Below are positions 3,193 through 32,444 of a DNA stretch of 32,444 bases, piece by piece. A program made the translations under genes and the position numbers. The notes below the pieces were generated by a model. That model saw nothing but the letters and a program-made list of their open reading frames with translations. It was not told the DNA's origin and ran no database searches. This DNA is from Lachnospiraceae bacterium (lineage in GTDB: Bacteria; Bacillota; Clostridia; Lachnospirales; Lachnospiraceae): NCBI GenBank assembly GCA_015057445.1, contig SVEI01000021.1, forward strand, positions 1 to 32,444, written 5' to 3'. Numbering within the stretch: position 1 is the stretch's first letter; every line of letters starts with the position of its first letter.

Positions 3193-5988
3193 ATGGAACG
3201 AAGAACAAATGTTGGAATGCGAACTATACAGTGTTTGTCGGGGATTTTTCTTGCTGTTGCAATATTATATTTTGTTATAGGAGAACTGTCTTCGGAAAAA
3301 GAGGTGTACTTTAAGGTGGGTGGAAGTGTGCCTTTTAATGATGATTGGGAGATGGTAACTCCTGAAGGGTTGAGAGTTCCAATAACAGTTCCTGGTGCAA
3401 ATGATGTAAAAAGTGGTGACGTGTTAAGAATTGAAAAAAAGCTACCTAATGATATGGATAATGTATGGTTGTGTATTAGAAGTACACAACAAGATATAAC
3501 AATAAGTGTAGATGGCCAAGTTAGGAAATTTTATAGTACAAAAGGAACTAGAAACTTTGGAAAAAATAGTGTTAGTGTTTATGTGTTTGCTGAGTTGTAT
3601 GCTGAGGATGCTGGAAAGATTCTTAGCATAGACATAGTGAGCTATTCTCCATATTCGGGATATGTTAATAATATGGTTATTGGGGATAGAGAACAAATAT
3701 GGACAGGTTTAGTGAAGAAGTATCTACCTGTAACTATTCTTGCTATGTTTATGTTAGTGCTTAGTGTAATGCTTGTTTTTTATTGTGTGATAGTACATGT
3801 GATTTACAAAAAGAATATGGATATAGCTTATCTAGGCTTAGCTCTCTTGGTAGCATCGGTATGGATTATTGCCGAATCAAAACTAAGACAGATATTTTTG
3901 CCTAATAGTACGATAGCAAGCGATGTTGGCTTTTTTATGATAATGTTATTACCATTTCCTTTCGTATCATATATTAATAAAATACAAAAAAACCGTTATG
4001 AAAAAGGTTATATGCTAGTTTGTTTTTGTGCTGTTATTAATTTTGTTATTTCAACACTTTTGCAGTTTGCGGATATTAAAGACTTTTCTGAAACAATGAC
4101 AGTGTCCCATGTGATTATTGTTGCATTTATAGTTATGTTGTTTGTAAATGTGATTATCGATATAAAGAAAAAACATATTCTAGAATATAAAGAGGTGGCT
4201 TTGGGATTTGCCGGACTTATGCTAGCTGGAATAGTGGAAATATATCAGGTATATGATGAAGCGGCAGTAAATAACGGAATTGCACTATGTATTGGTTTGG
4301 TGTTTTTGTTCTTTATGGCTGTAATTCAGACAGGACGAGATTTGTTGCAATTAGAAAAAGACAAACAGATTGCAGTGGCAGCTAGTGAGTCAAGAACTAT
4401 GTTTTTGGCAAATATGTCACATGAGATAAGAACGCCTATTAATACCATAGTAGGTATGAATGAGATGATACTGCGCGAGAACCAGAATAATGACACCAAA
4501 GAATATGCAAAGAATATAGATAATGCTAGTAAACTTCTTATGGGTCTTATAGATGATATATTAGATTTTTCTAAGCTTGACGCAGGAAAGCTTGAAATAT
4601 GCGAAAATCCATATACAGTAGCTGCCATGCTTAAGGATGTATTTCTAGGTGCCAGTGTCAGGATGGAAGATAAGGAGTTGGAAGTAAAAATAGATGTAGA
4701 CGAAAAACTACCTTCAGTGCTAAGAGGAGATGAAATTAGAATAAAGCAGATATTTAATAATTTGCTATCTAATGCCATAAAATATACAGTAGAAGGAAGC
4801 ATTTCTATATCTATGAAAGGCAGTTTTAATAAGGACAATTATTATCTAGTGTTTAAGGTAGCCGATACAGGAGTGGGTATTAGAGAAGAAGATTTGCCTA
4901 CAATATTTGACAGTTTTCGTAGAATGGAACTTAAGAGAAATAAATACATACAAGGAACTGGCTTAGGATTAAGTATTACAAAACAACTTGTTGAGAATAT
5001 GCAAGGAACCATAGAAGTAGAAAGCACATATGGTAAGGGAAGTTGCTTTACTGTGACTATTCCACAGGAAATAGTTGATTCAACTCCTATGGGAGATATT
5101 AAGGATGCATTTTTTGCTGTAGAGACTGGTGAAGAAGAGAAAGAAATTATGAGATTTTCTTCTGAAAGATCAGTATTAATAGTTGATGACAATGATATGA
5201 ATTTAAAAGTTATGAAAGCTTTGTTGGGCAAATCAGGATTGTCATTGGACTTTGCATCAAGTGGGACAGAATGTATTGATAAATGCAAGAGAAAAAAATA
5301 CGATCTAATATTTATGGATCATATGATGCCATATCCCGATGGAATTGAGACCTTACATTTGATTAAAGAAGATAATGATGGAATGAATAAAGATACCATA
5401 GTAGTTGTGCTAACGGCAAATGCTATAAAAGGAGCATCAGATCAATACGAAAAAGAAGGGTTTGCAGATTACGTTACTAAACCTGTTGAATATATAAAAC
5501 TAGAGGAAGTGTTGGTGAAGTATCTAGGAGATTCAACTATAGAAGGCAAGAGTGGTGCTAGTGCTTGGTTGAAGGATGAACCTTTTGATGCAGAAAAGCA
5601 AATAAAGGTAGATGTTTTAACGCCAGAAGTAAAAGGTATGGATATAACACCGTCATATAAACTTGATAGAGAAGAAGGGTTGAAATACTGTGGTGGGTTA
5701 GATGATTTGTATCAAGAAGTGTTGGAACATTATGTTAAGAATGCCACAAACTACAAGGAAGAGCTTGCGAAGTGTTATGAAGATAAAAATTGGCAAGAAT
5801 ATGCAAGAATTTCTCATACACTAAAAAGTAATTCTCTGACTATTGGATTGAAGGATTTTTCTGAGTTGGCCAAACAACATGAATACGCTGCTAAATCAGG
5901 TGATGAAGATTTTGTTAATAATCATTATGAGTATTTTATAAAATGTCTTATTGAATCAATAAAAGTTGTTGGGAAAGAAATAGGTTGA
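3193..5988 (+). CDS. Hybrid sensor histidine kinase with receiver and HPt domains
   Basis: 931 residues. Domain order: an N-terminal transmembrane helix (about 10-29); an extracytoplasmic beta-rich domain (about 30-175); a seven-helix membrane region resembling 7TM-DISM sensors (about 175-390); a HisKA dimerisation helix with the H-box SHEIRTP, phosphoacceptor His410; an HATPase with N-box around Asn522/523/526, G1 box DTGVGI (558-563) and G2 box GTGLGL (588-593); a receiver with acidic pair Asp665/666, phospho-Asp709, Thr741 and Lys763; and a C-terminal HPt domain with His875 in SHTLKS. The chain therefore holds a complete His-Asp-His phosphorelay. All catalytic residues are present. No response regulator lies nearby, so the final acceptor is encoded elsewhere. 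AGAGG at 3183-3187 sets the ATG start. Confidence 0.93.
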   Translation: MERRTNVGMRTIQCLSGIFLAVAILYFVIGELSSEKEVYFKVGGSVPFNDDWEMVTPEGLRVPITVPGANDVKSGDVLRIEKKLPNDMDNVWLCIRSTQQDITISVDGQVRKFYSTKGTRNFGKNSVSVYVFAELYAEDAGKILSIDIVSYSPYSGYVNNMVIGDREQIWTGLVKKYLPVTILAMFMLVLSVMLVFYCVIVHVIYKKNMDIAYLGLALLVASVWIIAESKLRQIFLPNSTIASDVGFFMIMLLPFPFVSYINKIQKNRYEKGYMLVCFCAVINFVISTLLQFADIKDFSETMTVSHVIIVAFIVMLFVNVIIDIKKKHILEYKEVALGFAGLMLAGIVEIYQVYDEAAVNNGIALCIGLVFLFFMAVIQTGRDLLQLEKDKQIAVAASESRTMFLANMSHEIRTPINTIVGMNEMILRENQNNDTKEYAKNIDNASKLLMGLIDDILDFSKLDAGKLEICENPYTVAAMLKDVFLGASVRMEDKELEVKIDVDEKLPSVLRGDEIRIKQIFNNLLSNAIKYTVEGSISISMKGSFNKDNYYLVFKVADTGVGIREEDLPTIFDSFRRMELKRNKYIQGTGLGLSITKQLVENMQGTIEVESTYGKGSCFTVTIPQEIVDSTPMGDIKDAFFAVETGEEEKEIMRFSSERSVLIVDDNDMNLKVMKALLGKSGLSLDFASSGTECIDKCKRKKYDLIFMDHMMPYPDGIETLHLIKEDNDGMNKDTIVVVLTANAIKGASDQYEKEGFADYVTKPVEYIKLEEVLVKYLGDSTIEGKSGASAWLKDEPFDAEKQIKVDVLTPEVKGMDITPSYKLDREEGLKYCGGLDDLYQEVLEHYVKNATNYKEELAKCYEDKNWQEYARISHTLKSNSLTIGLKDFSELAKQHEYAAKSGDEDFVNNHYEYFIKCLIESIKVVGKEIG

Positions 5989-31593: not shown

Positions 31594-31605
31594 ATGGAGG
31601 AAAAT

Positions 31606-31776
31606 ATGGAAACAATATATTATATAGTTAAAAGTATAGATGGTGATTATGCCAACTTGGTTAAGGAGGATGAGCCAGGAGGAGAGCCAAAGCTTGTAGC
31701 AAGAGCCCTGCTACCAGACAGTATTAGTGAAGGTTGTAGATTAAAATACGAGTTTTTACAGTATGAGATATGTTAG
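31606..31776 (+). CDS. Small DUF3006-like protein
   Basis: 56 residues from ATG 31606, preferred because GGAGG (31596-31600) stands five bases before it, whereas the in-frame ATG at 31594 has no SD. The sequence YIVKSIDGDYANLV followed by ARALLPDSISEGCRLKYEF resembles DUF3006 proteins, small beta-barrel proteins of unknown function. It follows the acyltransferase gene directly and is presumably co-transcribed. Confidence 0.7.
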   Translation: METIYYIVKSIDGDYANLVKEDEPGGEPKLVARALLPDSISEGCRLKYEFLQYEIC

Positions 31777-31835
31777 TGTTTAGAAAATTATGTCGTAACA
31801 AAACACAAACGTATGAGCAAGTATTAAAATGATGC

Positions 31836-31864
31836 TTGACATTTTATTTTTTTCGTGCTATTAT
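31836..31864 (+). promoter_or_regulatory. Strong promoter driving the Mn riboswitch leader
   Basis: Consensus TTGACA (31836-31841), a 17-bp spacer and TATTAT (31859-31864) with an extended TG (31856-31857). It is the best promoter in the window. Start near 31871. Confidence 0.88.
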
Positions 31865-31867
31865 TCT

Positions 31868-31887
31868 CTCATAGAAATTCCTATGAG
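31868..31887 (+). promoter_or_regulatory. Palindrome at the transcription start, possible operator
   Basis: CTCATAG (31868-31874), six bases, CTATGAG (31881-31887), a perfect 7-bp inverted repeat centred at about 31877. The 5' arm begins before the predicted start, so it should not fold fully in RNA. The 3' arm is also the 5' strand of riboswitch helix P1. It could be a DNA operator. Confidence 0.4.
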
Positions 31888-31967
31888 GGAGTAGCAGACG
31901 TCAAGGGCGTAATAAGTCAACATCCTGGCCGAAAGGTCTGGCTTATTTTAAATTGCGAGACTCATGT
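31881..31967 (+). ncRNA. yybP-ykoY (manganese) riboswitch aptamer
   Basis: The conserved blocks are GAGGGAGTAGC at the 5' side, GTCAACATC in the middle and GCGAGACTCAT at the 3' side. P1 is ATGAG (31883-31887) with CTCAT (31961-31965). Other helices: ACGTC/GGCGT (31898-31910), AATAAG/CTTATT (31911-31916 with 31942-31947) and a GAAA-capped stem (31924-31941). Known members sense Mn2+ and switch on metal exporters. The next gene here encodes an ABC-transporter ATPase. Confidence 0.92.
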
Positions 31968-31979
31968 ATTGCTAATAAA

Positions 31980-32023
31980 GCTATACGTGTGTCTTATTTT
32001 TTATGATTTTAACCGGGTATAGC
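31980..32023 (+). promoter_or_regulatory. Predicted antiterminator of the riboswitch
   Basis: GCTATAC (31980-31986) is perfectly complementary to GTATAGC (32017-32023), which overlaps the 5' arm and loop of the terminator. The two structures are mutually exclusive. Confidence 0.5.
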
Positions 32024-32045
32024 AGTTAGCGTACCCGGTCTTTTT
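32011..32045 (+). terminator. Riboswitch-controlled terminator
   Basis: ACCGGGTA (32012-32019) pairs with TACCCGGT (32032-32039), followed by C and five T (32041-32045). It lies about 45 bases after the aptamer. Confidence 0.9.
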
Positions 32046-32081
32046 GCGCGTTGCAATGAGCCGTGCACAGATGAGCTGAAT

Positions 32082-32112
32082 TGTTTGCTGGGAGCTTGCT
32101 CGTAAGCAAACA
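32082..32112 (+). repeat. Perfect two-tier inverted repeat in the ABC gene leader
   Basis: TGTTTGCT (32082-32089) pairs with AGCAAACA (32105-32112). Inside, GAGC (32092-32095) pairs with GCTC (32098-32101). There is no T-run after it, so it is not a terminator. It could be an RNA stabiliser or a protein site. Confidence 0.6.
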
Positions 32113-32143
32113 TATTCAAGCGAAGATGTATGCGGCGAATGCC

Positions 32144-32331
32144 GCGACACTGAGCGACACGAAGTGTTGCGATGTGTCAGCACGGCGAGGAGTGACACTG
32201 GGCGACACTGAGCGACACTGAGCGACACGAAGTGTTGCGATGTGTCAGCACGGCGAGGAGTGACACTGGGCGACACTGAGCGACACTGAGCACCACGAAG
32301 TGTTGCGATGTGTCAGCACGGCGAGGAGTGA
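32144..32331 (+). repeat. GC-rich tandem repeat, 68-bp period, about 2.8 copies
   Basis: The landmark CACGAAGTGTTGCG recurs at 32158, 32226 and 32294, exactly 68 bases apart. Copy 3 stops at GAGTGA (32331). Only two adjacent changes (GA to AC) precede copy 3. Each unit contains 10-bp subrepeats GCGACACTGA and a hairpin GCGACAC-GAA-GTGTTGC. The period is not a multiple of three, so no protein repeat is encoded. GC content is far above the surrounding DNA. Between the terminator and the repeat I see no gene. Confidence 0.92.
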
Positions 32332-32363
32332 ATTTCATAAGATAAGAAAGGATGGTAAAAATT

Positions 32364-32444
32364 ATGTTTCTTGAAATCAGCGGAATTAAAAAGCACTTTG
32401 GAGAGGGCGATAGCAGAGTAGATGTACTTAAGGGTATCGACCTT
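32364..32444 (+). CDS. ABC transporter ATP-binding protein, 3'-truncated
   Basis: The first 27 residues are visible before the window ends: MFLEISGIKKHFGEGDSR followed by VDVLKGIDL. This is the opening of a MacB/LolD-type ATPase (the beta-strand and aromatic A-loop region before Walker A), usually paired with an FtsX-like permease in efflux or lipoprotein-release systems. AAAGGATGG (32347-32355) is the ribosome binding site. The gene is preceded by the Mn riboswitch, its terminator and the tandem repeat, so its expression may depend on manganese. Permease and substrate are outside the window. Confidence 0.85.
   Translation, partial: MFLEISGIKKHFGEGDSRVDVLKGIDL

Follow-up and report, generated by a model that had tools for sequence, protein, structure and literature searches.

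The stretch of DNA analysed here (the window) is the whole of contig SVEI01000021.1 (C50), 32,444 nucleotides from a Lachnospiraceae bacterium (assembly GCA_015057445.1; genome of 2.68 Mb, 82% complete). The contig ends, in order, with a promoter, a structured leader reaching to 32045, a tandem repeat and the first 27 codons of an ATP-binding cassette (ABC) ATPase gene, all on the forward strand. The leader (31836–32045) is confirmed as real, and is made up of the promoter, an aptamer of the Mn2+ (yybP-ykoY) class and two hairpins with U tracts. Very probably it acts as a transcriptional ON riboswitch of this class and controls a type VII ABC operon; the operon, which pairs an ATPase like LolD, MacB and BceA with a 749-residue permease of FtsX type, would serve metal homeostasis. 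Genomes, contigs, loci and families are referred to below by handles beginning with G, C, L and f, G000 being the genome of the window.

The aptamer (31872–31970) was defined by covariation, by a partial match to the Rfam yybP-ykoY model (RF00080) and by a covariance model of our own, R1. It comprises P1 (31882–31887/31961–31966), L1 with GGGAGUAG (31887–31894), P2 (31897–31901/31907–31910), P3 with a UCAACAU stretch (31911–31919/31939–31947), P4 (31927–31930/31935–31938) and a GCGAGAC junction (31955–31961). By DNA similarity the leader was found in 17 of the 61 genomes searched, its own included. The 17 aptamers align, with invariant columns in L1, L3 and the junction and with stems P1 to P4. 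Ten of the 25 pairs changed on both sides with pairing kept; these are located in P2, P3, P4 and the L1–junction pair, while P1 shows one-sided changes only. In this alignment 98.7% of cells are paired, as against 21–48% in slid controls, and both shuffled and slid structures are much worse on cells paired and on the covariation score. The count of pairs with both-sided changes separates less sharply from shuffles (10 vs 6.6, with 6 of 500 as high), and further pair types are fewer than in the shuffles. R1, built from the 17 aligned aptamers, scores 107.4 bits on the window at 31872–31970, a value that is high by construction since the window is one of its rows.

With relaxed settings RF00080 matched the P3/P4 hairpin locally (20.3 bits, E 0.0017, positions 47–85 of 177), and this match together with the covariation upholds the yybP-ykoY aptamer named in the original prediction. 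The core letters agree with the RF00080 consensus where the two were aligned, namely over the P3/P4 part and, for one sister leader, over the displayed parts of the model span. Likenesses to the class extend to L1, the P3/P4 hairpin with GUCAACAU, the GCGAGAC junction and the company of MntP, P-type ATPase, GDT1 and CaCA genes; the differences are a compact form, a CUCAUG in P1 that is common to a terminator-like hairpin, a score below the Rfam cut-off, and an ABC operon as target. Eleven of the 17 sister loci precede accepted targets (MntP 8, P-type ATPase 1, CaCA 1, GDT1 1). It is because of this company and of the core letters that the RNA is taken to be a Mn2+ riboswitch.

The promoter is of sigma-70 type, with TTGACA at 31836–31841, a 17-nt spacer, TATTAT at 31859–31864 and a TG before the -10 element. 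It agrees with the consensus promoter originally predicted and was the sole sigma-70-like site listed in a scan of 31600–32444; the scan alone proves nothing, because shuffled sequences average 1.8 sites. Overlapping the 3' end of the aptamer, folding predicts an anti-aptamer, terminator-like hairpin (hairpin 1, 31957–31995, with a U-rich tail at 31994–32004) which has CUCAUG in common with P1; a similar hairpin is predicted in the leaders of most relatives. It is followed by terminator hairpin 2 (32012–32045; stem 32012–32039, U tract 32041–32045), seen in the fold and in a swapped-arm test. The 3' arm of hairpin 1 (31980–31986, GCUAUAC) is complementary to the 5' arm of terminator 2 (32017–32023, GUAUAGC), so that the sequence and the same test define an antiterminator spanning 31980–32023. 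A further predicted hairpin at the 5' end (31862–31893) competes with P1; among the 17 leaders it occurs only in five close relatives (G000, G031, G012, G018, G003).

The free fold of the leader has an energy of -68.5 kcal/mol (shuffle mean -41.6, z -6.05) and forms hairpin 1 and terminator 2, not P1. With P1 and the antiterminator forced, the value is -41.7, from which it follows that the switch must act during transcription. In the swapped-arm test, 28 of 33 leaders were used (five near-copies were left out) and two were lost because no terminator 2 was detected. Across the remaining 26 leaders, matched arms gave a mean of -8.97 against -7.21 (sd 0.36) for permuted arms, with none of 5000 permutations as good, which accords with the mutually exclusive antiterminator/terminator pair of the original prediction. 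At low Mn2+, hairpin 1 would capture the 3' strand of P1, terminator 2 would form and transcription would halt before the ATPase gene. At high Mn2+ the aptamer would retain P1 and free the 3' arm of hairpin 1, which could then pair with the 5' arm of terminator 2 and let RNA polymerase read into the ABC genes. The overlap of P1 with hairpin 1 and the complementarity of the arms fit an ON switch. We infer that Mn2+ is the ligand, that the direction is ON and that the ABC system acts in divalent-metal tolerance.

Within the genus, the RNA lies directly before an ATPase–permease pair of the window's kind in 12 genomes, one of which (G031) has a stop in the permease. R1 found 29 places in 21 of the 37 genus genomes, and 14 of these precede an ABC ATPase; of the two not accounted for by the 12 genomes, G016 holds a more distant pair and G020 the beginning of an ATPase gene where the contig ends. 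The pairing of riboswitch and ABC genes was seen in four other genera of the family and, in another order (family f66), in four genomes, three of them checked. Over the longest aligned part, the three f66 loci checked share 72–74% identity in the ATPase and about 42–44% in the permease with the window's kind. In family f5 the RNA precedes further FtsX-type permeases (L249, L123, L186); those of L249 and L123 are alike and both distantly related to the window's kind, and that of L186 is distantly similar to it, this being the sole comparison made for L186. The pairing of the RNA with FtsX-type ABC operons thus arose or was kept several times.

Named relatives were taken as the best 80 of 545 matches to the permease profile, and R1 matches 32 of these 80 loci, once each and on the sense strand. 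In the 31 relatives measured (L282 was left out) the RNA lies directly upstream of the ATPase gene in every case, with 93–327 nt (median 121) between the aptamer end and the gene, and 93–148 nt in 23 of them. At least 5 of the 48 riboswitch-negative relatives (L256, L287, L296, L308, L320) lie at contig ends, with the upstream sequence missing. Among the matches listed, the nearest named records with the operon are metagenome-assembled Lachnospiraceae genomes from the guts of ruminants. Cultivated relatives in the same list, such as Butyrivibrio hungatei, have the ABC genes but no riboswitch match. A quick tree was made of 85 permeases, 36 of them with the riboswitch (L252 was dropped for a stop in the permease, and long branches were flagged); the distribution of the riboswitch on it requires 4 changes, where shuffles average 27.7 and none of 500 is as low. 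On this tree the riboswitch was inherited in one large clade of permeases, with a few gains or losses. Species counts are not event counts, because close species share the riboswitch by descent. The link to the ABC gene, which had been drawn by position, can now be drawn by conservation in 12 genus genomes, 32 of the 80 relatives and another order. Taken in full, the comparison of leaders and ABC genes across genomes strengthens the case that a Mn2+-class riboswitch controls a type VII ABC operon, and supports the interpretation first offered, with manganese efflux or envelope stress as the presumed function of the ABC system.

The remaining RNA copies stand before other genes. In the genus, the 29 places comprise, besides the 14 ABC ATPases, mntP (10), CaCA antiporters (4, three of them followed by GDT1) and one unclear case (G016:C34). 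The genome of the window has a second copy, before mntP (G000:C114), with 45.6 bits by R1. In the order, R1 found 113 places in 91 of 392 genomes; the targets, assigned by protein motif with examples checked by Pfam (L225 and L229 were called MntP by eye), are at the 112 places besides the window MntP (65), P-type ATPase (20), CaCA (11), ABC (7), GDT1 (3), OAD-beta (3), a chemotaxis receptor (1) and no gene (2; L199, L209). Cation exporters (MntP, P-type ATPase, CaCA, GDT1) account for 99 of the 112. Matches were present in 87 of the 391 class genomes, and 25 further loci, taken from the places with the best scores, precede MntP (14), P-type ATPase (7) and ABC (4) genes, L372 and L376 having been assigned by eye. 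MntP is a canonical target of Mn2+ riboswitches, and the RNA beside mntP in relatives supports Mn2+ as the ligand. The original prediction had held that a riboswitch kept beside a different gene in related genomes would tell against it; this is true in part, with mntP beside the RNA in G023, G024, G019, G008 and G052, but MntP speaks for the ligand.

Several individual loci were recorded in the same surveys. Two riboswitches follow each other at L206 and L213, with mntP behind one and, behind the other, the P-type ATPase gene that comes next. On one strand of G434:C60, two aptamer matches (4825–4929 and 4969–5069) lie 39 nt apart, possibly a tandem Mn2+ riboswitch. At L177 (G151:C10:169778–169882) the RNA is found 119 nt before the gene of a methyl-accepting chemotaxis protein, and at L218, L235 and L239 before OAD_beta genes (Na+-transporting oxaloacetate decarboxylase beta subunit; L218 checked by Pfam).

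The ATPase gene begins (MFLEISGIKKHFGEGDSRVDVLKGIDL...) with an ATG at 32364 and runs for 27 codons to the contig end (32364–32444), in keeping with the ABC ATPase start originally noted after the leader. The start of another contig (G000:C76:1–2422) holds an ATPase C-terminus and then the 749-aa permease at 176–2422. Relatives have the same order, ATPase then permease; C50 and C76 were left unjoined, the ATPase of this genome being split over the two. The permease matches FtsX alone in Pfam, with no MntP, GDT1 or P-type ATPase domain. In fold comparison it is like the type VII proteins BceB, YbbP, LolC/E, MacB and HrtB, and its profile has no match among PDB sequences at E 0.001. An ABC ATPase together with an FtsX-type permease of MacB fold defines a type VII system, and on this modelling the transporter is one (BceB/YbbP/HrtB-like). 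The original description as "MacB/LolD type" holds at that level and fails at a finer one, as the ATPase of relative L027 stays below the NCBIfam cut-offs for MacB (203.1 of 966 bits) and LolD (196.9 of 307.75 bits).

Hydropathy and the model give the permease about 8 membrane helices, two external domains and a duplicated unit in one chain. This is not the layout of BceAB, in which BceB is described with ten membrane helices and one large external domain (PMC5985334). With BceAB, YbbAP, HrtBA, LolCDE and MacB the system shares the ATPase family and the FtsX-type permease fold; it differs from them in the duplicated unit, the two external domains, the roughly 8 helices per chain and a regulation that is here metal-linked. 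The manganese efflux families listed as known are CDF, MntP, UPF0016/GDT1 and P-type ATPase (PMC13274385). Three of these (MntP, GDT1, P-type) were seen here behind the same riboswitch, but none of the four is an ABC transporter.

Some permease relatives without the riboswitch possess instead an inverted repeat that resembles the 12-2-12 site bound by ArsR/SmtB regulators (PMC8790569 gives an example of such a site). The pattern ATGAAY-N3-TGYTCATAT (ATGAAYNNNTGYTCATAT), used as a strict test, occurs 42 times in the 37 genus genomes, and the reversed control 0 times. At 30 loci with this site, it precedes an ArsR-family gene (9), an HMA-domain/heavy-metal ATPase gene (12), this ABC (5) or other genes (3); a sixth ABC locus is L358. 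Pfam confirmed one ArsR and one ATPase example, and the ABC genes of G032 have an ArsR gene immediately before them. At L332, L338, L339, L340, L355 and others, the ArsR/SmtB-like repeat is common to ArsR, heavy-metal ATPase and ABC homologue genes. The upstream and tree surveys used looser expressions for the ArsR-like site and for palindromes; by the loose pattern, the ABC operons L299, L303 and L305 appear to have both a Mn2+ riboswitch and an ArsR-like site. In Butyrivibrio (L319, L322) a short Fur-family-like gene, confirmed by Pfam for L319, lies directly upstream of the ABC homologue.

Between terminator and ATPase gene the window has a 68-bp tandem repeat of 2.8 copies (32144–32331) in the 5' untranslated region. 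L012 has a shorter repeat region, and L014, L017, L022 and L024 have none. The stretch 32036–32185, before and into the repeat, resembles nine other places in the genome at 72–93% identity over parts.

Several observations weigh against a Mn2+ riboswitch in control of the ABC operon. At Rfam gathering cut-offs there is no match in the window, RF00080 at E 0.001 has none in the genome, and the 20.3 bits of the leader fall short of the RF00080 gathering score of 45 bits, which is a threshold set for detection and no biological trait. The original prediction had counted a score below threshold against itself, and literally that is the outcome, but sister loci before accepted targets score no better: searched with RF00080 at E up to 0.05, the 17 loci gave two matches (26.0 and 25.8 bits) and none reached 45. 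For this reason relatives were used as evidence. That the leader contains no riboswitch was considered and rejected, since the sister leaders before mntP fail Rfam likewise and the covariation is clear. It seems that Rfam's Mn2+ model misses clostridial members even before mntP.

Other such points concern the switch, the ligand and the transporter. A simple terminator scan of 31600–32444 listed neither hairpin 1 nor hairpin 2, only the P4 hairpin (31927–31943). Five of the 26 leaders (L265, L272, L278, L280, L266) pair weakly with the script-chosen arms (-1.5 to -2.8), and relatedness was not fully removed from the swapped-arm and tree tests. A review calls Mn2+ riboswitches "OFF" switches (PMC11477304); activation is described for the streptococcal mgtA switch (PMC9495176). 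Targets other than exporters exist, namely the chemotaxis receptor and OAD-beta. The predicted membrane helices have no conserved acidic residue well within them (D253 and E299 are at their ends), which argues against a direct ion path. A GTTAG-N-CTAAC palindrome (loose pattern) is present in 24 of the 85 tree rows, outside the riboswitch group, and at L284 a TetR gene lies upstream of the ABC genes; both would fit drug or peptide export and argue for a broader role. Finally, of the 13 genus genomes that combine riboswitch, ATPase and permease, 11 also have mntP (PF02659), which is missing only from G030 and G009; many genomes are incomplete. The ABC system is therefore no simple replacement of MntP, and the idea that it replaces MntP was dropped.

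As to what the ABC system does under riboswitch control, our analysis slightly favours a task in the membrane or on its outer face, where substrates laden with metal or damaged by it would be extracted, over direct pumping of Mn2+. An analogous extraction role has been proposed for HrtBA with heme. Alternatively, the ABC system would be an envelope-stress system that handles a lipid, lipoprotein, peptide or cell-wall intermediate and is made necessary by Mn2+ overload, manganese being the signal and not the cargo; this is a strong contender that nonetheless falls somewhat short of probable, as the RNA otherwise stands mostly before cation exporters and the ArsR-type site ties the relatives to heavy-metal efflux. 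The same two facts, the 99 of 112 order places and the site shared with heavy-metal ATPases, would suit an ABC system that is a manganese exporter in its own right and carries Mn2+, or a small Mn complex, across the membrane. We regard this as unlikely in view of the type VII fold, such systems being described as working on substrates in the membrane or outside the cytoplasm (PMC5985334), of helices without conserved acidic residues well inside them, and of the mntP gene that is usually still present.

Two further alternatives concern the RNA. It might be a yybP-ykoY relative with another ligand, such as Ca2+, Cd2+ or another divalent ion, considering its low Rfam score, its places before CaCA antiporters and cation P-type ATPases, and a streptococcal member that is described as binding Ca2+ more tightly than Mn2+, though Mn2+ activates more (PMC9495176); with MntP the commonest target (65 of 112) and core letters matching RF00080 where aligned, this is improbable. 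The other alternative brings in SSRC10 (RF02617), described as a Streptococcus small RNA (sRNA) before a "putative calcium transporter" gene (PMC3675131). The SSRC10 model gives a weak full-length match to the window at 31883–32000 (23.2 bits, E 0.048, cut-off 56); the motif order is the same and its terminator overlaps GCGAGAC, the difference lying in its description as an sRNA (PMC3675131). Although catalogued as an sRNA family of its own, SSRC10 probably represents the terminated form of a Mn2+ riboswitch leader in streptococci. That the window's leader is likewise an independent, always terminating short RNA, the ABC genes having their own promoter, would accord with that report and with the roughly 318 bases, repeats included, between terminator and ATPase gene, but is highly improbable given that the consensus scan lists no promoter-like site after 32045, as the original prediction required, that the aptamer ends 93–148 nt before the ATPase gene in 23 of 31 relatives, and that the linkage is kept in many species.

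The preferred reading remains a riboswitch of a known class that has an uncommon type of target, possibly a metal-handling ABC system of a new kind. In titles and abstract openings of the open-licence papers searched, no Mn2+ riboswitch before an FtsX-type ABC operon is reported; the target lists of the 2015 class-defining and 2019 streptococcal papers lie outside that coverage and may contain an ABC entry. We put forward only tentatively that a clade of clostridial type VII ABC systems forms a new class of machine for metal-ion detoxification and a fifth kind of Mn2+ efflux beside CDF, MntP, GDT1 and P-type, wired by lineage to a Mn2+ riboswitch or to a heavy-metal repressor of ArsR/SmtB type. 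A widespread riboswitch class is tied repeatedly, across orders, to ABC machinery that is outside the usual list of manganese exporters and is not known to handle metal ions, and the same ABC family is linked to heavy-metal efflux through another control element. This may represent a new way in which bacteria, here uncultured gut bacteria, cope with excess metal. An ABC system that moves metal would be an exporter of a new type, whereas one that repairs the envelope would show the damage that manganese overload does in Gram-positive anaerobes.
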